Below are positions 3,434 to 26,255 of a DNA stretch of 32,246 nucleotides, piece after piece; position 1 is the first letter of the stretch, and each line of letters opens with the position of its first letter. The stretch is from Desulfuromonas sp. (lineage in GTDB: Bacteria > Desulfobacterota > Desulfuromonadia > Desulfuromonadales > Geothermobacteraceae). The DNA is taken from NCBI GenBank assembly GCA_002868905.1, contig PKUA01000083.1, positions 1 to 32,246 on the forward strand. Direction: 5' to 3'. The notes beneath the pieces were generated by a model. It was not told the origin of the DNA. It ran no database searches and was given only the letters and a program-made list of their open reading frames with translations. Both the position numbers and the translations under genes were made by a program.

Positions 3434-3462
3434 ACTGTTTACAAACAGCATTGAAGATCGAT

Positions 3463-3496
3463 TTTCAAGGGCGCTGCGGCGCCCTTGAAACGTTTT
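3463..3496 (+). terminator. Rho-independent-type hairpin after metG
   Basis: Positions 3463-3474 (TTTCAAGGGCGC) pair perfectly with 3479-3490 across a 4-base loop, and a short CGTTTT run follows. It lies 29 bases after the metG stop and before the downstream TatD start, which argues that the in-frame TTG at 3451 is not a real start. The T-tract is short, so termination may be partial. Confidence 0.7.
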
Positions 3497-3513
3497 GCCG
3501 GAGTCAGACAACC

Positions 3514-4899
3514 ATGAGTTCACTTCCACCATTAATCGACACCCACGCGCACCTCGACAGTTCACAGTATCATGAAGACCTGGATGCCGTTCTGCTAAGG
3601 GCGCAGGAAAACGGAATTTCCAATATCATCACGATCGGGTGCGACCTCCCGAGTTCAAAAAAGAGCGTCGCTCTGGCGGAATCGATCCCGGGACTATACG
3701 CAGCCGTCGGCGTCCATCCCCACGACGCGTCGACAGTCGACGCTGCCTGTCTCAGGGAGATTGGACAGCTTGCCGGCTCGGACAAGGTCGTTGCCGTTGG
3801 CGAAATCGGCCTCGATTACTACCGGGATCGCTCACCCCGCGAAACTCAACGGAAAGTCTTCAGTCAACAGATCGAACTCGCCAAAGAGATGAACCTGCCG
3901 ATCATCGTTCATGACCGCGATGCCCATTTTGATGTCATTGATATCATGGGGCAATCCGGCGCGGAGGATGTCGGTGGGATACTGCACTGTTTCAGCGGAG
4001 ACCTGGACATGGCCCGCAAGTGCATTGACCTGGGGTTCCTGATCTCTTTCGCCGGTCCCCTTACCTACCCGAAAAATGATCAGTTGCGCGATATCGCCCG
4101 GCAAATTCCAACGGAACATTTGCTGGTCGAGACTGACTGCCCCTACCTTGCACCGCAAAAATTCCGGGGCAAACGGAACGAGCCTGCATACGTGCGTCAT
4201 ACGGCCGAAAAGCTGGCCGAAATCAAGGGCCTGAGTATGGAGGACATTTCCCGCATCGTCCAGCTCAACTGCCAGCGACTGTTCGGCATCGGCCGGATCG
4301 ATCAGTCGACCAAAATCGCCTACAAGATCAGGAATTCCCTCTACCTGAACGTCACCAATCGCTGCACCAATCAGTGCGTCTTCTGCGCGAAACGGAATGA
4401 CTTCTTCGTCAAGGGCCATCAGCTGCGCCTCGAGAGTGAACCATCCGCAGCTGAAGTCATCAGCGCTATTGGAGAACCGTCCGTTTACGACGAGATCGTT
4501 TTCTGCGGCTACGGCGAACCGCTGCTGCGTCTCGATCTGGTCATCGAAGTTGCCGCCTGGTTAAAGAAAAAGGGCTGCAGGGTCCGGATCAATACGGACG
4601 GCCTCGCCAACCTGGTCCACCAGCGGAATATCCTGCCGGATTTAACGGGTCTGGTTGACGTTATCTCGGTATCACTGAATGCGGCCGATCCGGCAACCTA
4701 CCAACACTGGTGCCAGTCGACCATTGGCGAAGAAGCCTTCGATGGAGTTGTCTCTTTTCTGGAGCTGGCGAAGGACCAGGTCCCGACCGTCATTGCGACA
4801 GCCGTAACCCTCCCGGAGGTCGACATGCGCGCCTGCAGGGCACTGGCAGACAGAATCGGGGTAGAATTTCGCGAACGACCCTATAACGAGGTGGGGTAA
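3514..4899 (+). CDS. TatD family hydrolase fused to a radical SAM domain
   Basis: This 461-residue protein joins two enzymes. Residues 1 to about 260 are a TatD-type metal-dependent deoxyribonuclease/hydrolase: it starts with LIDTHAHLD (metal-binding HxH), has GEIGLDYYRD, HDRD, HCFSG and ETDCPYLAP, and ends with the CQRLFG helix. Residues from about 280 to the end are a radical SAM domain, with the cluster motif CTNQCVFC (CxxxCxxC) after YLNVTNR and a GYGEPLLRLD segment. I recall radical SAM proteins associated with TatD as a recognised family; the reaction is unknown. The ATG at 3514 has a GGAG 10 bases upstream and starts the conserved TatD sequence; the in-frame TTG at 3451 would place the metG terminator inside the gene. 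It is convergent with the PilZ gene. Confidence 0.9.
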   Translation: MSSLPPLIDTHAHLDSSQYHEDLDAVLLRAQENGISNIITIGCDLPSSKKSVALAESIPGLYAAVGVHPHDASTVDAACLREIGQLAGSDKVVAVGEIGLDYYRDRSPRETQRKVFSQQIELAKEMNLPIIVHDRDAHFDVIDIMGQSGAEDVGGILHCFSGDLDMARKCIDLGFLISFAGPLTYPKNDQLRDIARQIPTEHLLVETDCPYLAPQKFRGKRNEPAYVRHTAEKLAEIKGLSMEDISRIVQLNCQRLFGIGRIDQSTKIAYKIRNSLYLNVTNRCTNQCVFCAKRNDFFVKGHQLRLESEPSAAEVISAIGEPSVYDEIVFCGYGEPLLRLDLVIEVAAWLKKKGCRVRINTDGLANLVHQRNILPDLTGLVDVISVSLNAADPATYQHWCQSTIGEEAFDGVVSFLELAKDQVPTVIATAVTLPEVDMRACRALADRIGVEFRERPYNEVG

Positions 4900-6058: not shown

Positions 6059-7684
6059 ATGTTCTGTTATCAATGTGAAACAGCAGTCAATGGCGTCGGT
6101 TGCGACAAGGTCGGGGTCTGCGGCAAGCAGCCGACCACCTCGGATCTCCAGGATCTCCTGGTCTATACCGTCAAAGGGATCAGCTTCTGGGCCGATCTCG
6201 CCCGGACCAAGGGAGCCAAGAACGATGAGATCGACCGTTTTGTGATTGAAGCCCTGTTTACCACGGTCACCAACGTCGACTTTTCCGATGACTCCGTCGC
6301 CGCTGTTATCGCCGAAGCGGTTGCACTACGCGACAAGGCTCGCTTCCTGGCGGAACAAGCCGGAGCACAGGCTGACACCATTCCGGAAGCGGCGCAAAAC
6401 TGGGAATTTCCTACTGACCGTACCGCCCAACTCGCCCTCGCCCAGCTGCACGGAGTCAAAGATCCGACAATCGACCCGGACATCCAGTCGATGCGCAGCA
6501 CCATCCTGTTCGGCATCAAGGGATACGCCGCCTATGCCGATCATGCTTTGATCCTGGAACATGAGAGCGAAGAGATCTACGCCTTCACCCACAAGGCCCT
6601 CGCAGAACTTCAGAACGACAGCCTCGGCCTGATGGATTATGTCAATCTCGCCATGGAGACCGGTCGTATCAACCTGGTGACCATGGAGTTGCTCAACAAT
6701 GCTCACACTGAACGTTACGGCCACCCGGTTCCGACCCCGGTCCAACTCGGCACCAAGGCGGGCAAGGCGATCCTGGTCTCCGGCCACGACCTCAAGTTCC
6801 TCGAAGAGCTGTTGATTCAAACCGAAGGAAAAGGGATCAACATTTACACCCACGGGGAAATGCTCCCGGCCCACGGCTACCCGGGTCTGAAGAAATACGC
6901 TCACCTGGCCGGCAATTATGGCGGTGCCTGGCAGGACCAGCACACCGAATTCCAGGCGTTCCCCGGCGCTATCATCTTCAACACCAACTGTATCCAGCGC
7001 CCGGCCGCCGACTACAAGGAGCGGCTGTTTACCTGGGGACGCGTACAGTTCCCAGACGTCAAACATGTCGATGGCTGGGATTTCAGCGAGGTGATCGACT
7101 GCGCCCTCGCCTGTGAAGGGTTCGAGGACAATCCGGGCCAGGAGATCCTGACCGGATTCGGCCACAACGCCGTGCTCGGCGTCGCCGACAAGGTAATCGA
7201 GGCGGTCAAGTCCGGCGACATCAAGCATTTCTTCCTGGTCGGCGGTTGCGACGGCGCCAAGCCGGGCCGTAATTACTACACCGAATTCGCCGAGAAGGCA
7301 CCGAAGGATACGGTGATCCTGACCCTCGCCTGCGGAAAGTTCCGTTTCAACAAGATGGAGTTCGGCGATATCGGCGGCATTCCACGTCTGCTCGACGTCG
7401 GCCAATGCAACGACGCCTACTCCGCCGTTCAGATCGCGGTCGCCCTGGCCAATGCCTTCGAATGCGGCGTCAACGACCTGCCGCTCTCGCTGGTCCTCTC
7501 CTGGTATGAGCAGAAAGCGGTCGCCATCTTGTTGACCCTGCTCCATCTCGGGATCAAGAACATCAAGATCGGCCCGAGCCTGCCGGCCTTCATCACTCCG
7601 AATGTGTTGAACTTCCTGGTGGAAAACTTCAACATTGCCCCGGTCAGCACCCCGGATGCCGACCTGAAAGAGATCCTGGGCTGA
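6059..7684 (+). CDS. hcp: Hybrid cluster protein (hydroxylamine reductase)
   Basis: Hcp is a cytoplasmic Fe-S protein that handles nitric oxide or hydroxylamine under anaerobic nitrosative stress. The N-terminal cysteines C3, C6, C15 and C21 have the spacing of the anaerobe-type (class I) 4Fe-4S cluster. Later blocks such as SGHDLKFLEE, YTHGEMLPAHGYP, FNTNCIQRP, GGCDGAKPGRNYY, LACGKFRFNK and DVGQCNDAYS carry the ligands of the hybrid cluster. At 541 residues it is full length. The frame runs 27 codons further upstream, but AAGGAG at 6047-6052 and the invariant MFCYQCE start fix the ATG at 6059. No hcr reductase gene follows; a strong terminator does, so it is probably monocistronic. Confidence 0.96.
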   Translation: MFCYQCETAVNGVGCDKVGVCGKQPTTSDLQDLLVYTVKGISFWADLARTKGAKNDEIDRFVIEALFTTVTNVDFSDDSVAAVIAEAVALRDKARFLAEQAGAQADTIPEAAQNWEFPTDRTAQLALAQLHGVKDPTIDPDIQSMRSTILFGIKGYAAYADHALILEHESEEIYAFTHKALAELQNDSLGLMDYVNLAMETGRINLVTMELLNNAHTERYGHPVPTPVQLGTKAGKAILVSGHDLKFLEELLIQTEGKGINIYTHGEMLPAHGYPGLKKYAHLAGNYGGAWQDQHTEFQAFPGAIIFNTNCIQRPAADYKERLFTWGRVQFPDVKHVDGWDFSEVIDCALACEGFEDNPGQEILTGFGHNAVLGVADKVIEAVKSGDIKHFFLVGGCDGAKPGRNYYTEFAEKAPKDTVILTLACGKFRFNKMEFGDIGGIPRLLDVGQCNDAYSAVQIAVALANAFECGVNDLPLSLVLSWYEQKAVAILLTLLHLGIKNIKIGPSLPAFITPNVLNFLVENFNIAPVSTPDADLKEILG

Positions 7685-17762: not shown

Positions 17763-18935
17763 TCACCCCTTTTGTGCGGCATCATTGAAACTCGAATGCG
17801 GCTGATCCCGGAATCGTTCCTGTATCTCCAGAATCCCACCTTCTTCTGAAATCAGGGCATTCACGCAATCAGAATCGAGCTTGCTGGTCGAAAGCAGACG
17901 GAGCATTGCAAAAGCGAGTTCATTTGACCAGGGCTGGTGATAGGGGCGCCAGCTGGTCAAAGCATCAAAGATATCGGCAACCGCCACGATACGGGCTTCA
18001 AGCGCAATTTCTTCACCCTTTAACCTGTCCGGATACCCATGTCCATCCATTGTTTCATGATGATGCTCAGTGACGTGGCGCAGCAACTCCACACGAAGCT
18101 GGGAAAACTGGCTGATTTCATCCAGCAGACCGTCCAGCAACTCCCTGCTTTTCAGAGGGTGTTTTTCAACTTCACGGCGTTCGTCATAGTCAAGACGCCC
18201 CGGTTTCCGCAAAACCTGACCGGACACACCAAGTTTTCCCATATCGTAAAGACGGGCATAGTCGAACAGATTCTCGATGTATTCATCACTGAGATCATAG
18301 CGACCGGTCTCGGCAAGGCGTCTGGCAATCAGGCGGGCATAGTTGGCTATCCGATCGGGTTGGTTGCGAGACCTGTCAGGACGTCGATGCACCAGCCCCG
18401 ACGCGACTTTCAGCGAAGTCGCGAGAGTTCTGACCTGGCTCATTTCGCCCATAACCATCTGTCCGACAAGGTAACCGTACAGATCGAACGTTTCCAGCCT
18501 GTCCAGGTCGAAGCTGTCCATTTGGGTACTGTTGAAAAAGACGAATCCGTTAATTCGTTCATGGCTGAGCATCGGGACTGTATAGCTGGACCGGATTCCG
18601 GCGGAGAGCAATTTTCGGACATGCACCTTGTCGCTTCCCCGGAAACAGTTCAGATCGTTGATCAACCTCGGCCTTCCAGTTTCAATCAGAGCCAACAACG
18701 ATGGCATGTCGTGCAACGGAAACTGATAATGTTCCAAGGGGTTATCTTCGGCGTCGCTGCTATGAATGAAAGCCTTCAAAAGGCCAGTTTTTTCGTCGTA
18801 GAGGGCCACGCTGATACGAGCGAGGAAGGGAAAATCCTTCTTTATGGTCTGATGGATGACCTTGAGACGTTCGCTGCCATTCTCAGCCTTGTGCAAAAGT
18901 TCAAACGAGGTCAATGATAATGCCGTCGATCCCAT
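17763..18935 (-). CDS. GAF domain plus degenerate HD-GYP domain protein
   Basis: This 390-residue protein has an N-terminal GAF-like domain (about residues 15-160) and a C-terminal HD-GYP domain, the class that hydrolyses c-di-GMP. The second part retains KHPLKSRELL (His259), HHHETMDGHGYP (His291-293, GYP) and VAVADIFDALTS (Asp321). However, the HD dyad is Tyr-Asp (YDMGKLG, residues 230-231), and the upstream metal-binding His is not seen in NQPDRIANYA. It may therefore bind but not cleave c-di-GMP. No membrane segment is present, so it is cytoplasmic. GGAGGG five bases upstream supports the ATG. Confidence 0.86.
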   Translation of the reverse strand: MGSTALSLTSFELLHKAENGSERLKVIHQTIKKDFPFLARISVALYDEKTGLLKAFIHSSDAEDNPLEHYQFPLHDMPSLLALIETGRPRLINDLNCFRGSDKVHVRKLLSAGIRSSYTVPMLSHERINGFVFFNSTQMDSFDLDRLETFDLYGYLVGQMVMGEMSQVRTLATSLKVASGLVHRRPDRSRNQPDRIANYARLIARRLAETGRYDLSDEYIENLFDYARLYDMGKLGVSGQVLRKPGRLDYDERREVEKHPLKSRELLDGLLDEISQFSQLRVELLRHVTEHHHETMDGHGYPDRLKGEEIALEARIVAVADIFDALTSWRPYHQPWSNELAFAMLRLLSTSKLDSDCVNALISEEGGILEIQERFRDQPHSSFNDAAQKG

Positions 18936-20108: not shown

Positions 20109-20636
20109 CTAAACGGGCGCAATGCGCCCGCCACAGACGTGGCGATAACGCCTTCCACGATTCAATCTTCTGGTTCTGCGAATCTCTTCGCCACAGCGAA
20201 GACAGGTTGCGACAACCTTGAGCCTTTTTTGATAAAGCTGGCACAGTGCGGGACTTTCTCCCCTGACCCGGCCGGGCAAACCGAAACTCTCCATCCAGGT
20301 TCTCCAGCCTTCCCCGTGGGCTTGCCGGTAATGCTCACCCGGGAGACGGTGCAGGTGGTCACAGGCATGAGCGACCTCATGCAGAAAGGTTTCCCGGAGC
20401 TGGTCCATTTCCTGGGAAAATTGAATACGGACCGAAACCGGCCGGCCCGCGCAGGAGGAATAGCTGCCGAGGCGACGCGTCGCCCGACTCGGTTTGACCG
20501 ATACGCTAGCGATGGTCAGGATGAAGCCATCAGCGAGGTCCGGGGCGACGCGACGGCGAATCCCCTGCTGAATCAAACCCCAGAGGTCTAACTTCAAGGC
20601 GAGGGTCTCGACATCATGGCAATGATAAAGGCTCAT
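20109..20636 (-). CDS. SprT-like zinc metalloprotease domain protein
   Basis: This 175-residue protein carries the SprT/Spartan-type active site HEVAHACDH (HExxH) near the middle, followed by a zinc-ribbon tail with CLRCG and HVCGG. Eukaryotic Spartan removes DNA-protein cross-links; bacterial SprT-like proteins are largely uncharacterised. The open frame extends upstream into the Memo-like gene, but the ATG at 20636 overlaps its stop (TGATG, one base shared) and begins MSLYHCHDVETLALKL. Translation is thus coupled to the Memo-like gene, which suggests the two are needed together. The N-terminal 50 residues resemble SprT helices. Confidence 0.86.
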   Translation of the reverse strand: MSLYHCHDVETLALKLDLWGLIQQGIRRRVAPDLADGFILTIASVSVKPSRATRRLGSYSSCAGRPVSVRIQFSQEMDQLRETFLHEVAHACDHLHRLPGEHYRQAHGEGWRTWMESFGLPGRVRGESPALCQLYQKRLKVVATCLRCGEEIRRTRRLNRGRRYRHVCGGRIAPV

Positions 20637-21457
20637 CAGGTTACTGGCACCACGGCACCGGCATAACCGACGACTTCGCTCATATCCCCGTTCACTTCGC
20701 CGGAATTGCCATAACGAACCAGTTCGACCTGTGACGCACCGAGCCTGCGGCACGTCTCAAGAACAACCACCGTCGCTATCATGCCGCACATGCTGATCCG
20801 ATTGTCACGGACTGTCCTGTATAGATTTTCAGGGTCGAGAGCGAGGACTTCAGCCAGTGCCAGCTGATCTTTGACCCGGGCCGCATCGGCCGACTCGAAG
20901 TGGGTCATGTCGGTGCTGGTGACCAGCAACACCGGCTCCGGGGTCTCGCTGATGACAGCCGCAATCGCGGCGCCGAGGGAGAGCAGTCGATCAAGGGACA
21001 GGTGCATGAGACTCAGCGGCGTGATCTGCAAATCCGGCTGCAGGTATTGCAACAACGGGACCTGGACTTCGAGCGAATGTTCATGGCGATGAGCCGAATC
21101 ACTTTGACTGATCAGGTCGCTCTGGGCCAAAATTCTTTGACTCAAATCCTGGTCGATCCGTACCACCCCGAGTGGAGTTCTCCACCCCTGTTGCGTCACC
21201 ACGCTGGCCGGTTCGCCAATACCATGGTGGTTCGGGCCGAGAAGAATAACTCTTTTCGGGATGACCACCCGGGCTAAGGTTTCCGCGGCAATCGCACCAC
21301 TGTAGATGTATCCGGCATGCGGTAGCATGACGGCGATAGCTGTTCGAGGTACGATGCCCGTTGGGAACATCCCCTTCAGGACCTCCTTCAACCCCTCGGC
21401 TTCTCCCGGATAAAACTGCCCGGCGACAGCCGGTTCTCGAATGGATGCTACCGGCAT
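20636..21457 (-). CDS. amrB: AmmeMemoRadiSam system protein B (Memo-like)
   Basis: This 273-residue protein belongs to the MEMO1 family, related to class III extradiol dioxygenases. It starts MPVASIREPAVAGQFYPGE, the normal N-terminus, and has the metal-site residues in LPHAGYIYSG, LGPNHHG and EHSLEVQVPLLQYL, with TSTDMTHFE further on. In bacteria and archaea such proteins accompany an AMMECR1 protein (A) and a radical SAM protein; neither is in this window. AGGAGG six bases upstream supports the ATG. It sits eight bases after TauE and overlaps the SprT-like gene, so the three form an operon. Its reaction in this setting is unknown to me. Confidence 0.92.
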   Translation of the reverse strand: MPVASIREPAVAGQFYPGEAEGLKEVLKGMFPTGIVPRTAIAVMLPHAGYIYSGAIAAETLARVVIPKRVILLGPNHHGIGEPASVVTQQGWRTPLGVVRIDQDLSQRILAQSDLISQSDSAHRHEHSLEVQVPLLQYLQPDLQITPLSLMHLSLDRLLSLGAAIAAVISETPEPVLLVTSTDMTHFESADAARVKDQLALAEVLALDPENLYRTVRDNRISMCGMIATVVVLETCRRLGASQVELVRYGNSGEVNGDMSEVVGYAGAVVPVT

Positions 21458-21465
21458 ATGGCCTC

Positions 21466-22293
21466 CTAACCTGCTGAAGTGACCTGCCAGATCATTTTGA
21501 TTCCGACCAGGATGAGCAAAACTGAAAATGCCTTTAATAGCCTAGCATGACTGGTGCCTCCGGCAACCCTCACCCCCAACCTGGCGGTGACAATGGTAAA
21601 CGGGGCCACCAGGAAAACAACCAGAAGATTGACAAAACCGGCGGAGAATTGAGGCAGACCTGCAGCATGCCAACCGTGAATCACGTAGGAAAGAGCGCCG
21701 CTCAAAGAAGAGATGACAATCAGCGCACTTGAATTGCCGACAGCACGATGAATCGGCAGCTGCAGGGCAATCACCATCAAAGGAACAGCGACGACACCTC
21801 CGCCGACTCCGAAGAAAGCGGAAAAACAGCCGCCAGCAGAACCGACTAAAAACAGGGAGAGAGGAGGAGTCAGACTGTTCCGCTCCGGTGGCAGGTAGCG
21901 ACGGGAACGAAACATTTTGATCGACACCAGAATCTGCATCACCCCGAAAGCGAATTGCAGCGAGTTACCGTTCAGCAGTGATGCAAACCAGGCTCCCGCC
22001 ACCGAGCCGGCAATTCCTCCCAGGGCGAGATACTTGACTTCGTGCCAATCAACATTTCCACGCTTGCGATGACCCGCGGTTGAGCTGATGGAGGTTGGCA
22101 AAATGATGGCGAGGCTGGTGGCAAAGGCGGCGTGAACGAGAATGTCTGCAGAATATCCGGCCAGCGGGAAAGCCCAAAGGAACAAGGGGACCAAAAGGAT
22201 TCCCCCGCCGATGCCGAGCAACCCTGCGAGAAATCCGGCAGAGATCCCGATTCCGGCAAACATGAGCAGGCTGAGAACGGAGAAGGATTCCAT
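21466..22293 (-). CDS. TauE/SafE family permease
   Basis: This 275-residue inner-membrane protein has about eight hydrophobic segments and two repeats with the family glycine motif, GLLGIGGGILLVP at residues 24-36 and FFGVGGGVVAVPL in the second half. The family exports sulfite, sulfoacetate or related anions in some bacteria. Which substrate it carries here is not shown. It begins after the tRNA-Cys terminator and is the first gene of the operon with the Memo-like gene. There is no clear Shine-Dalgarno; the ATG at 22293 gives the usual N-terminus. Confidence 0.88.
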   Translation of the reverse strand: MESFSVLSLLMFAGIGISAGFLAGLLGIGGGILLVPLFLWAFPLAGYSADILVHAAFATSLAIILPTSISSTAGHRKRGNVDWHEVKYLALGGIAGSVAGAWFASLLNGNSLQFAFGVMQILVSIKMFRSRRYLPPERNSLTPPLSLFLVGSAGGCFSAFFGVGGGVVAVPLMVIALQLPIHRAVGNSSALIVISSLSGALSYVIHGWHAAGLPQFSAGFVNLLVVFLVAPFTIVTARLGVRVAGGTSHARLLKAFSVLLILVGIKMIWQVTSAG

Positions 22294-22342: not shown

Positions 22343-22416
<74 letters not shown>

Positions 22417-22484: not shown

Positions 22485-22802
22485 TCAACCATTTGGGTGC
22501 GTTTTCATACGGTCTTCCACAACCGCCACTTTTCCCTTGAGGTCATGCGCGGCACCGTCACGTCGGTCGTCAAGCTTGATCAGGGTTGAAACGCGCTGAG
22601 CCGCCATCCCAAACGGCGCCTCGTGCATCCGTTGCAGCAACGGAAACAGTTCGTCGATCTCTCCTTCAATGACGGTTCCCATCGGAGTCAACTCATAATT
22701 CAGACCACTCGCCTTGACCAGTTCAACGCAGGCGGCGACATAGCGGGACACACCCCCTTCTCCTGTTCCCAACGGAGCCACACTGATTTCCACGATCGCC
22801 AT
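22485..22802 (-). CDS. MTH1187 family thiamine-binding protein
   Basis: This 105-residue protein is of the MTH1187/YkoF-like (DUF77) family, small ferredoxin-like-fold proteins; some members bind thiamine or thiamine pyrophosphate. It begins MAIVEISVAPLGTGEGGVS, with the conserved PLGTG loop, and has LTPMGTVIEGEIDELF and the C-terminal KLDDRRD segment. The frame extends further upstream but the ATG at 22802 is the canonical start, with GGAG eight bases upstream. No thiamine genes or THI-box riboswitch are visible nearby. It lies 69 bases before the tRNA-Cys gene on the same strand. Confidence 0.88.
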   Translation of the reverse strand: MAIVEISVAPLGTGEGGVSRYVAACVELVKASGLNYELTPMGTVIEGEIDELFPLLQRMHEAPFGMAAQRVSTLIKLDDRRDGAAHDLKGKVAVVEDRMKTHPNG

Positions 22803-23005: not shown

Positions 23006-24259
23006 TCAGTTCAGCAGCCCAATGATCGCCCCGGTTATGCATGTAGCCATGGTACCGGAGAGAACCGATTTCATGCCGAGTCCGACGAGGTCCCTCCGAC
23101 GTTCAGGGACCATCGCACCCATGCCGCCGATCATGATACCGAGGCTGCCGAAATTGGCAAAACCGCACATGGCATATATCAGGATCAACCTGCTTCGCGG
23201 TGAAAGGGCTTCTGGCGGCAATGCCGAGAGGTTCAAGTAGGCGACAAATTCATTGAGGACGGTCTTTGTGCCGATCAATCCCCCTGCCGTTACCGCTTCG
23301 CTCCAGGGGATGCCGAGCGTCCAGGCAAGCGGTGCCAGTAACCAGCCAAGCAGCGACTGCAGCGTCAGAGGGCTCTCGCCCGCCGGTATCAAAGCCAGAA
23401 GATGGTTGACCAGGCTGACCAGGGCAACAAACACAATCAGCATGGCCACGATGTTGAGCAGCAATCCGACTCCGTCAATCACCCCCTTGACCACGGCATC
23501 CATGCTGCCATGCGCATCGCTGCAGGCCAACTCACCGGCGCCAGTCCGGTCTCCCGTATCCGGTATCAACAGATGGGAAATCATCAACGCCGCCGGGGCA
23601 CTGATCAGCGATGCCGTCAGGACATGCCCAAGCGCCGCAGGGAGGACCGGTTCGAGAATCTGAGCATAAAGCACCAGAACCGTTCCGGCAATGGTACTCA
23701 TGCCGCAGGTCATGACCATAAACAATTCGCCCCGCGACATGGCGTGCAAATATGGACGGATCAGCAACGGAGCTTCAACCATCCCGACAAAAATATTGGC
23801 AGCCGCACCGATACCGACCGCGCCGCCTACACCGAGAGTGCGCTGCAGAATAGCGGAGCAGAACTTAACCACGAGAGGGAGAACCCTCCAGTAATAGAGC
23901 AGCGCCGAGAGCGCGCTGACAACCAGCACCAGCGGCAGGGCCTGGAATGCAAGGATAAAGGAATTGGCCGGCTGCTCCATGCCGAATGGAGTTGGACCTC
24001 CGCCGATGTAACCAAAAACCAGAGAGGTCCCAGCCTTGGTGGCATCCGACAGAGCGAGCGTCACCCTGTTCAAGGAGAGGAATACATCCTGCAGCAGCGG
24101 AACCCTGAGCATGACCAGGACAATAACTAATTGCAATAGCATCGCACCAACCACGAGACGCCATCGAACGTTTCGTCGGTCTTCGGAAAATCCCCAGGCC
24201 GTCGTCAGCAACAAAAGAATGCCGATCCATCCCTGGCTGAAAGTTGGATCACCGGACAT
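23006..24259 (-). CDS. Concentrative nucleoside transporter, CNT family (NupC-like)
   Basis: This 417-residue inner-membrane protein imports nucleosides with a cation. Characteristic CNT blocks are NIFVGMVEAPLLIRPYL, MTCGMSTIAGTVLVLYA and GTKTVLNEFVAYLNL, with FANFGSLGIMIGGMG near the end. Length agrees with E. coli NupC (about 400). The ATG at 24259 lies two bases after the GGDEF stop (TGAGATG), so translation is probably coupled. AAGGAAAG is about 10 bases upstream. An in-frame ATG at 24280 would overlap the GGDEF gene and lacks a Shine-Dalgarno. The coupling to a GGDEF protein is unexplained. Confidence 0.9.
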   Translation of the reverse strand: MSGDPTFSQGWIGILLLLTTAWGFSEDRRNVRWRLVVGAMLLQLVIVLVMLRVPLLQDVFLSLNRVTLALSDATKAGTSLVFGYIGGGPTPFGMEQPANSFILAFQALPLVLVVSALSALLYYWRVLPLVVKFCSAILQRTLGVGGAVGIGAAANIFVGMVEAPLLIRPYLHAMSRGELFMVMTCGMSTIAGTVLVLYAQILEPVLPAALGHVLTASLISAPAALMISHLLIPDTGDRTGAGELACSDAHGSMDAVVKGVIDGVGLLLNIVAMLIVFVALVSLVNHLLALIPAGESPLTLQSLLGWLLAPLAWTLGIPWSEAVTAGGLIGTKTVLNEFVAYLNLSALPPEALSPRSRLILIYAMCGFANFGSLGIMIGGMGAMVPERRRDLVGLGMKSVLSGTMATCITGAIIGLLN

Positions 24260-24260
24260 C

Positions 24261-25553
24261 TCAGGACAACTTTCCTTCATCGAGATGCGCCGAGTTGGCC
24301 GGCATGGTCTGCTGAGAAATCGAGCGGTTACGGCCGGACTGCTTGGCGGCATACAACGCCAGGTCCGCGCGTTTGAGAACCTCATTCATCTGAGTATCGG
24401 ATATCTGGGCGGATCCGATACCGATACTGACAGTAACCTTATGCATGCCCCCGTCAACCTCAAAAGGGGCGTTCTCTACAGACTTTCGTATCTCCTCCGC
24501 CCTGGTCAAGGCCTGTTGCGAATTGCAGTCCGGAAACAGTAAGAAGAAACGATCTCCCCCCCAGCGACCTATAAAATCAAAAGGACGTCTCAGGCTATCG
24601 AGCAGTTCACCCGTCAGTCGCAAAATCTGGTCACCGATCGCCATTCCATGAATTTCGTTGAATCCCTTGAAGTGGTCTATATCGACCATAACCAGACTGA
24701 AAACCTGGCGGCGGCTCGGTTCCTGATGAAGATAACGAGCCATCTCTGTTTCGGCGTGTTCAATAGCATGCAGCCTGTCGGTAAGGCCCGTCAGGGGATC
24801 GACGCTGGTCAGGTCGCTCATCCGGTTTAAAAGTTTCTGCATGGCCCGGATTTTTCTTGAAAAAACATTCCCTGCAGCCGCAAGTGCAAACGCAAGGAGA
24901 ATCCCCAAAAGGAGAATCGACGTAATGACTGCTTCCAGGATCTCTTCCCGGTAAGGGGTTACGTCACGATAAATTTCAAAACTCCCGATGACTTTCCCCT
25001 GATGGGACCGGATCGGAATATAGGCCTCGACGACATCAACATTAAATTTTTCCTCGAGGTCGAGGTCGAGAACCATCTCCTTGGTTTCCAGCCGGCTGTC
25101 ATTATTCCCGGCCAGGGCATTATTGAGGCGCTGGTTGCCGAAATCGATCTGGCCGATGATTTGATGGTCTGTGCTGTAAAGGATCATCCACTCAGGAGAA
25201 AAGACCTTGATCTTCAAAATGTCGAAAGGCGACAGCAAGTTCTTCATTCTCTGATCAAACTGTTGCAGGCGACTGTGAGGAAGAGTCAGTTCTTCCTCGC
25301 CCCGCCGGTTTTGATTGACCAGTAAAAACCCTTCAAGCCGCAAGATCGACTGACTGACAGCAACAGCCTCGTTCTCGGCCAACTTGATGACCATATTCGA
25401 AAGAACCCGATTCAGGCCGACACCTGCCAGAACCAGAACCAGCAAGGTGGCAAGACAGGACAGGCCGAAAAACAAGCGAATGAGGTTCTCGGAATGTGCG
25501 CGGATGATTTTCTCTGTGATGTTCGTTTGCGGGGATGGTCTGTCGACTTGCAT
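24261..25553 (-). CDS. Membrane GGDEF protein with degenerate active site (GGDRF)
   Basis: This 430-residue membrane protein has a transmembrane helix near residues 26-46, a periplasmic sensor of about 150 residues, a second helix near 208-228, then a GGDEF domain. GGDEF blocks DPLTGLTDR, VDIDHFKGFNE and ADLALYAAK are present. The signature is GGDRF (residues 332-336): the second acidic residue is Arg, so cyclase activity is doubtful. The inhibitory-site RxxD is intact as RPFD (323-326), five residues before the signature. Hence it may be a c-di-GMP receptor. The start is uncertain: ATG at 25637 and 25598 have no Shine-Dalgarno; 25553 has GGAGGG, about 11 bases upstream. Confidence 0.85.
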   Translation of the reverse strand: MQVDRPSPQTNITEKIIRAHSENLIRLFFGLSCLATLLVLVLAGVGLNRVLSNMVIKLAENEAVAVSQSILRLEGFLLVNQNRRGEEELTLPHSRLQQFDQRMKNLLSPFDILKIKVFSPEWMILYSTDHQIIGQIDFGNQRLNNALAGNNDSRLETKEMVLDLDLEEKFNVDVVEAYIPIRSHQGKVIGSFEIYRDVTPYREEILEAVITSILLLGILLAFALAAAGNVFSRKIRAMQKLLNRMSDLTSVDPLTGLTDRLHAIEHAETEMARYLHQEPSRRQVFSLVMVDIDHFKGFNEIHGMAIGDQILRLTGELLDSLRRPFDFIGRWGGDRFFLLFPDCNSQQALTRAEEIRKSVENAPFEVDGGMHKVTVSIGIGSAQISDTQMNEVLKRADLALYAAKQSGRNRSISQQTMPANSAHLDEGKLS

Positions 25554-26255
25554 GGCCGCTGTGGCCCTCCATGGTCTGAAAATTATCGGAGTGGTCATCC
25601 AAACAGGACAAGTTTGGCAAAACCGCGGCCGACCCATAAAATAATGGCAGAAAAGATAGTTATTCTTGTCTATCGCAGTGACGTTAAAACATCAAAAAAG
25701 GCAGGTCAATATCGGTGTAGAAACAAAAATACTTGGAAAATGGGAAGCTTGTGATTTCAAATTCTTACGCAGTCTTCCCATTTTTTGTTTCTGCCCAAAT
25801 ACCCATAAAAAAAATAGGAACGTTCCATGATCCGACAAAAAAAATGGGAAGATCCCCAACACACATTTTTGTCTGCCTAAAACTCTGCTTTATGATTTTG
25901 ACAGAAAACAGATCAACCTGCCACCCCTAACTCCCCGAATATCTCTGCTACCACTCATCACCCCTTCGGAACCCCAAGCAAAAATGGACAGCAACCCTAG
26001 GACACGAAGGTTGCAATATTTATGATCAAGCAAACGGTTGGCCCTCTTTGGCTTACTGATCACCCAGAAAGTCTTCTTTCGAATCCTACTGCCTATCTGG
26101 TGTATGGGGTCATCTCAAGCTAAAAACAACTCAATTTTTCGCCTTACATTTCCTCGTGTGATGTGAGCAGAGTTCTGAACCGACGAATCTAGCTGTTCTT
26201 GTAACTTCTGATGTCTTTAAAGGCAGGCCGTTATTGTCCGCGCCTTGAAAGCTGT
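25554..26255. other. AT-rich intergenic region, no convincing gene
   Basis: About 700 bases between the GGDEF gene and the P-type ATPase end contain only short open frames without Shine-Dalgarno or family motifs. The part up to 25553 may be leader of the GGDEF gene. The middle holds a repeated motif described separately. I see no terminator with a T-tract for the ATPase operon, no tRNA and no known riboswitch. Confidence 0.6.
25719..25852. repeat. Repeated AAAATGGGAAG motif, inverted and direct
   Basis: AAAATGGGAAG occurs at 25737-25747, inverted at 25774-25784 (CTTCCCATTTT), and again direct at 25841-25851. The first pair is extended outward by AGAAACAAAAA / TTTTTTGTTTCT (25719-25729 and 25781-25792), giving an imperfect hairpin. 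A GGAACGTTCC palindrome is at about 25817-25826. It could be a transcript hairpin or the relic of a small repeat element. Confidence 0.5.

Follow-up and report, generated by a model that had tools for sequence, protein, structure and literature searches.

The analysed window is a stretch of 32,246 nucleotides of contig PKUA01000083.1 from Desulfuromonas sp. (family Geothermobacteraceae; the genus is represented by one genome, the window's own). Its minus strand carries a gene for a protein combining a sensor region with a GGDEF domain (Table 1), for which translation could also start at the internal ATG codons of residues 14 and 29. A single G separates the stop codon TGA of this gene (24263-24261) from the ATG of a gene for a CNT (NupC-type) nucleoside transporter, giving the junction TGAGATG. 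The CNT gene matched TIGR00804 with 321.4 bits, below the cut-off of 442 for that model. Downstream of the CNT gene lies a block comprising genes for a thiamine-binding protein, tRNA-Cys, a TauE/SafE permease and a Memo-like protein. Some 5 kb from the sensor-GGDEF gene, the window also encodes a GAF and HD_5 (HD-GYP type) protein (17763-18935, minus strand), in which the HD pair is found as LYDMGK, with His replaced by Tyr, and GYP is kept; judged by the HD-GYP motif, it resembles a degenerate c-di-GMP phosphodiesterase. A single ORF at 3451-4899 (plus strand) combines a TatD-type DNase with a radical SAM domain.

Table 1. Features of the sensor-GGDEF gene and its neighbours (window coordinates; residue equivalents refer to PleD)
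Feature	Coordinates	Strand	Basis or remark
Sensor-GGDEF protein gene	24261..25637	minus	458 aa from first ATG
Periplasmic sCache/PDC-type sensor domain, about residues 78-228, between two membrane helices (predicted)	24954..25406	minus	Model and structure matches
GGDEF domain, residues 278-438	24324..24806	minus	PF00990, 125.2 bits; model; PleD fold
Met332 at H340 position	24642..24644	minus	Alignment; H in 63/66 relatives
Primary I-site motif RPFD (R359, D362)	24576..24587	minus	Translation and DNA
Degenerate active-site motif GGDRF	24546..24560	minus	Translation and DNA
Arg363, codon CGT, at E371 position	24549..24551	minus	Glu in 66/66 GGDEF-bearing relatives
Glu382, codon GAG, at R390 position (secondary I-site residue)	24492..24494	minus	R or K in 66/66 relatives
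CNT (NupC-type) nucleoside transporter gene	23006..24259	minus	PF07662, PF01773, PF07670
Thiamine-binding MTH1187-family gene, conserved block downstream of CNT	22485..22802	minus	PF01910, TIGR00106
tRNA-Cys(GCA), conserved block, between TauE and thiamine-binding genes	22343..22416	minus	Recurring neighbour
TauE/SafE permease gene, conserved block	21466..22293	minus	Pfam; recurring neighbour
Memo-like gene, conserved block	20636..21457	minus	Pfam; recurring neighbour

The gene product is a two-pass membrane protein in which a periplasmic sCache-type sensor is joined to a GGDEF domain; the membrane helices flanking the sensor were assigned by visual inspection of the sequence. An earlier, sequence-only reading of this DNA had already described a membrane sensor whose GGDEF domain is devoid of the fourth-position Glu, and this description was borne out. 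Assignment to the GGDEF family is supported by the PF00990 score, which far exceeds the curated Pfam cut-off of 23.8. The full-length model had a mean pLDDT of 80.3 and a pTM of 0.62, and its GGDEF part, where all but one of the 16 ten-residue blocks between residues 281 and 440 reach a pLDDT of at least 95, could be superimposed on PleD (1w25_A) with an rmsd of 1.3 over 167 columns. When modelled alone (residues 81-235, two-sequence alignment), the sensor gave a pLDDT of 74.5 and a pTM of 0.73. This model matched the sensor domains of WalK, DcuS (entry 3by8) and CitA with VIA-align Z values of 13.3, 12.1 and 11.6, respectively, the rmsd to WalK (4ywz_B) being 3.4 over 135 residues. The sensor domain is thus predicted, by a model of moderate confidence, to have the sCache/PDC fold. 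Scanning with Pfam yielded nothing above the cut-off for the sensor domain and detected neither EAL nor another effector domain in the chain.

The span 24543-24587 translates on the minus strand to RPFDFIGRWGGDRFF, inside the 458-residue ORF 24261-25637. The domain reads RPFDFIGRWGGDRF exactly where the sequence-only reading had placed GGDRF with Arg instead of the catalytic Glu, and RPFD lies, as it had also stated, exactly five residues upstream of the GG motif. The underlying DNA is CGT CCT TTT GAT ... TGG GGG GGA GAT CGT TTC, and the frame stays open through the run of seven G into normal GGDEF sequence. A single base-call error as the source of Arg363 was rejected, since CGT is three changes away from both GAA and GAG.

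The domain was mapped on PleD using a reference sequence that agrees letter for letter with PDB entry 9g86. In PleD numbering, L294, R313 (Arg301 of the window protein), D327, D329, F331, K332, N335, D344, L347, R359, D362, R366, K442 and R446 are kept. The metal ligand D327 and the third-position acid, the guanine ligands N335 and D344, and the phosphate ligands K442 and R446 are therefore all present. Four sites are changed, namely D336 to Glu, H340 to Met, E371 to Arg and R390 to Glu, while Asp at E370 is a normal variant; at column 304, outside the mapped set, the Arg of the family is replaced by His. The motif expected of an active cyclase, GG[DE]EF with Glu at position 4, is interrupted by Arg363. 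For the I-site, the equivalents of R313' and R390 are Arg301 and Glu382; DgcR illustrates that these supporting positions differ from one enzyme to another (PMC8041772). A Hypr GGDEF domain (cGAMP synthase) was considered and rejected: the D344 site is occupied by Asp336 of the window protein, where Hypr domains have Ser.

When the 277 genomes of the class were searched with the sensor region, 108 gave matches with E 1e-6 or better. The sensor set was built from the best of these, 80 regions with matches reaching E 3.6e-29, weaker matches being left out; it omits G124:C215, which has an internal stop, and keeps G046, which also has one. Together with the Marinobacterium locus L020, it yielded 82 sensor ORFs in 81 loci. 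A GGDEF domain was present in 66 of them, and the other 16 (14 with a cysteine-rich tail, L171 with a PAS-like part identified by eye, and L214, which was unclear) were excluded from the GGDEF counts. The PleD E371 column accordingly contained 66 Glu and 16 gaps. Complete RxxD was found in 65 of the 66 GGDEF-bearing relatives, the exception being the Marinobacterium protein. Within this set, Arg at the E371 position thus occurs in the window alone, and the I-site motif is inherited. Conservation of GGDRF among relatives, a check suggested along with the sequence-only reading, was not observed: none of the 66 has Arg, and the protein copies in two genomes of the same bacterial family (G003 and G004) have GGEEF. 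G001 and G002, the remaining genomes of this family, contained only weak sensor matches. The window protein thus shares with the sCache/PDC sensor and GGDEF family of the class the sensor region, the placement of the GGDEF domain and RxxD, but has GGDRF, Met and Glu where this family has GG[E/D]EF, H340 (63/66) and R or K at 390.

Of the 40 GGDEF columns conserved in at least 90%, the window protein loses 8, against a mean of 1.1 for the 67 rows; for the 29 sensor columns conserved at the same level, it loses none, the mean being 1.4. The G003 and G004 copies have also lost eight conserved GGDEF columns each, partly different from those lost in the window (F331, K332, D336, H340, R446 and three more), and kept GGEEF and RxxD. 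The tree groups the window with these two copies at a support of 77/83, with an end branch of length 2.18 for the window, and carries a warning from the tree program of a possibly false joining of the two long branches.

In 14 relatives (L192, L208, L211, L212, L215, L216, L218-L222, L224, L225 and L228) the same sensor carries a cysteine-rich tail instead of the GGDEF domain, with the pattern P[IV]CxxCKKIRxxxxxWxxxExYIxxxSExxFxHxxCPxC. A Pfam scan of this tail in L192 and L211 gave no convincing name. The tail may constitute a separate, small output domain.

Arg at the fourth motif position was also searched for at the DNA level in the 277 genomes of the class, using the pattern R-[YFWCL]-GG-[DE]-R-F; the patterns for the variant match sites where R366 is encoded by CGN and residue 367 by a TDB codon, and the counts refer to these forms. 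The canonical pattern occurs in 274 of the 277 genomes. For the variant, 43 sites with CGN and 13 with AGR were found, more than chance would give, as the reversed control patterns matched 5 and 3 sites, respectively. Examination of all 56 placed six in GGDEF domains, the window included. The other five belong to G194, G195, G196 and G198, which are four species of one genus (g72), and to G256. Two of the four g72 GGERF proteins were scanned with Pfam and both have the architecture PocR-GAF-GGDEF, and the G256 GGDRF protein has GGDEF alone above the cut-off. GG[D/E]RF is therefore found in three different architectures, one of them in four species. All six variants keep R359, D362, D327, N335, D344 and K442. 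The g72 lineage also keeps H340, R390 and R446, and in G256 K332 is replaced by Glu, H340 by Tyr and R446 by Asn. Among the loci with GGERF or GGDRF in other architectures (L335, L352, L353, L354 and L358), the first four are those of the g72 lineage; of these, L335 differs from PleD only at 371 of the 19 mapped sites; besides the change at 371, L352 and L353 have Glu at 336, and L354 has Glu at 336 and Arg at 332. The g72 and G256 proteins thus resemble the window protein in having Arg at the E371 position and RxxD, and differ from it in their N-terminal parts (by Pfam, for the two g72 proteins and the G256 protein scanned), in R or K at 390, and in His (g72) or Tyr (G256) instead of Met at 340. 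None of the PMC papers searched contains GGDRF, or GGERF as a whole word.

The role of the fourth Glu is disputed. For GacA, a function as the general base that acts across the dimer has been proposed, and replacement of this Glu by Gln kills activity (PMC6456294), whereas for DgcR it is argued to coordinate metal M2 (PMC8041772). Arg at this position should be inactivating under either role. In VCA0965, changing AGDEF to AGDAF abolished c-di-GMP synthesis, and the same source quotes a figure of 24% for the share of degenerate motifs among GGDEF proteins (PMC3974145, in part). Judging from these residues, the window protein probably no longer makes c-di-GMP.

The explanation we prefer, with a probability of about 0.7, is that the window encodes a catalytically degenerate cyclase behind a preserved sCache-type sensor, with the GGDEF part acting as a non-catalytic module. 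It is based on the changes of Glu371 to Arg, His340 to Met, Asp336 to Glu and Arg390 to Glu, together with the retention of GTP-binding residues, RxxD and the sensor columns. The ancestor would have belonged to a family with the residues of product-inhibited diguanylate cyclases, and the GGDEF domain would have become catalytically degenerate in the window lineage. The sensor would still respond to a periplasmic ligand, and the GGDEF part may bind a partner protein, a guanine nucleotide or both, the nucleotide being either GTP or c-di-GMP, the latter at a weakened I-site. Several points speak against this explanation. The disputed role of the fourth Glu makes loss of activity less certain, Arg might not mean inactivity, as the g72 GGERF lineage keeps nearly all other mapped residues, and the grouping of the window with G003 and G004 at 77/83 may reflect falsely joined long branches.

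It is very improbable that the protein is still an active cyclase in which Arg is tolerated and other residues compensate. GG[DE]RF does occur in two other GGDEF lineages, including the four species just mentioned, and active variants at the first motif position have been published, but the active variants described in the available text concern position 1, not 4 (PMC3974145), and replacement of Glu at position 4 by Ala or Gln inactivates (PMC3974145, PMC6456294). Residual decay, with the GGDEF domain no longer under selection and the gene on its way out, could account for the long end branch and for the 8 of 40 conserved GGDEF columns lost; it is made unlikely by the full-length open frame and the retention of 29/29 sensor columns and most nucleotide-binding residues.

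Two further possibilities are narrower versions of the degenerate-cyclase explanation, and their odds overlap with it. In the first, the protein would be a c-di-GMP receptor in which the ligand, bound at RPFD of the I-site, alters interaction of the sensor with a partner, as in PopA or SgmT. The sequence-only reading had favoured this function, taking GGDRF together with an intact I-site as the usual mark of a receptor. Only the primary part of the site proved intact, RxxD being present and the secondary residue R390 being replaced by Glu382, at a position where all 66 relatives have R or K; and because RxxD is inherited by 65 of the 66 relatives, it is no mark of a receptor. Its retention in the window and in the G003 and G004 copies agrees with c-di-GMP binding, but as an ancestral feature it is weak evidence: with 8 of 40 columns lost, simple arithmetic predicts that two given residues would be kept about 0.64 of the time. 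SgmT provides a precedent, as it binds c-di-GMP with a degenerate active site and RxxD, and the R763A replacement abolishes binding (PMC3509222, in part). SgmT and PopA resemble the window protein in both features, although SgmT is a GAF histidine kinase with the motif GGGVF and without K442/R446 (PMC3509222), while the window protein keeps K442/R446 and has Glu at R390. In PleD, R390 belongs to the I-site (PMC8041772, PMC12943098), but its equivalent in DgcR is described as too distant to take part (PMC8041772, in the passages available), so the loss of R390 weakens the receptor idea and need not abolish binding. Reception of c-di-GMP is thus a possible, candidate function, with odds below even.

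The second version, which we regard as doubtful, is a sensor of a guanine nucleotide (GTP or ppGpp), whose pocket would be kept for binding without turnover, as in Caulobacter CC3396. The retention of D327, N335, D344, L294, L347, K442 and R446 agrees with this function, and PDB entries 9g85 and 9g86 are listed as PleD with ppGpp and pppGpp. CC3396, a non-catalytic GGDEF domain reading GTP, is similar to the GGDEF part of the window protein but has as its target an EAL domain of its own chain (PMC12943098, in part), and an EAL-like effector domain was not found by Pfam in the window protein. Arg beside the metal ligand and the changes at His340 and Asp336 also argue against such a sensor.

The adjacent CNT gene had been regarded as translationally linked to the sensor-GGDEF gene, in a pairing that might tie nucleoside uptake to c-di-GMP. 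The CNT start codon does lie one base past the stop, but this makes coupling plausible at most; co-transcription of the two genes is likewise plausible from their arrangement. A search with the CNT protein gave matches at E 1e-20 or better in 65 of the 277 genomes, and the CNT set comprised the 39 best matches after the window's own together with G193 (40 loci). Several sensor and CNT loci are short where contigs end, and neighbours there could be missed. With this limit, the 80 sensor loci and L020 yielded no CNT ORF, and none of the 40 CNT loci had a sensor-GGDEF gene adjoining CNT, so that the proposed pairing did not recur in relatives. Five of the CNT loci contained some other GGDEF ORF. 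The one in L301 (G102) encodes 717 amino acids, begins like a response regulator as judged by eye, and has the orientation of CNT, from which it is separated by about 1 kb on the upstream side; a tblastn search with the sensor of the window protein gave no match to this locus. The GGDEF ORFs of L272, L277, L279 and L297 are more distant from CNT and have the opposite orientation. A weak sensor relative (32% identity) was seen near CNT, in convergent orientation, in G124 (L267, about 6606-7052).

The genes on the other side of CNT do recur. Seven of the 40 CNT loci, including one of the same bacterial family (L288, G002), have the thiamine-binding, tRNA-Cys, TauE and Memo genes near CNT, as in the window, and L270, L278 and L281 have a partial block; tRNA-Cys occurs in 10 of the 40, with at least one block gene. 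Among the loci compared, the sensor-GGDEF gene before CNT is seen in the window only. CNT therefore looks like a local neighbour only, and the comparison does not support a functional connection of nucleoside uptake with c-di-GMP. A literature search for nucleoside transporters with c-di-GMP or GGDEF showed no such gene pair in the titles and abstract openings of the matches listed. The ammonium transporter Amt-GGDEF (PDB entries 8qpf and 8qj3, as described there) also combines a transporter with a GGDEF domain, but as one chain, whereas the window has two separate genes whose adjacency was not found in other loci compared.

The recurrence of GG[D/E]RF is the most interesting by-product of this analysis. 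It would be quite speculative to regard it as a natural GGDEF subclass, a module reading guanine nucleotides that arose more than once from cyclases, with Arg replacing the catalytic Glu and the GTP-binding residues and RxxD kept. If it is a real functional class, GG[D/E]RF would be a simple motif for finding non-catalytic guanine-nucleotide sensors, as well as a natural test of whether the fourth Glu is a general base or a metal ligand. A degenerate cyclase domain is in itself a familiar kind of change, to which the window adds one more case. On the simplest reading of the sequences, the catalytic role would have weakened in this bacterial family while the sensor would have stayed under selection.
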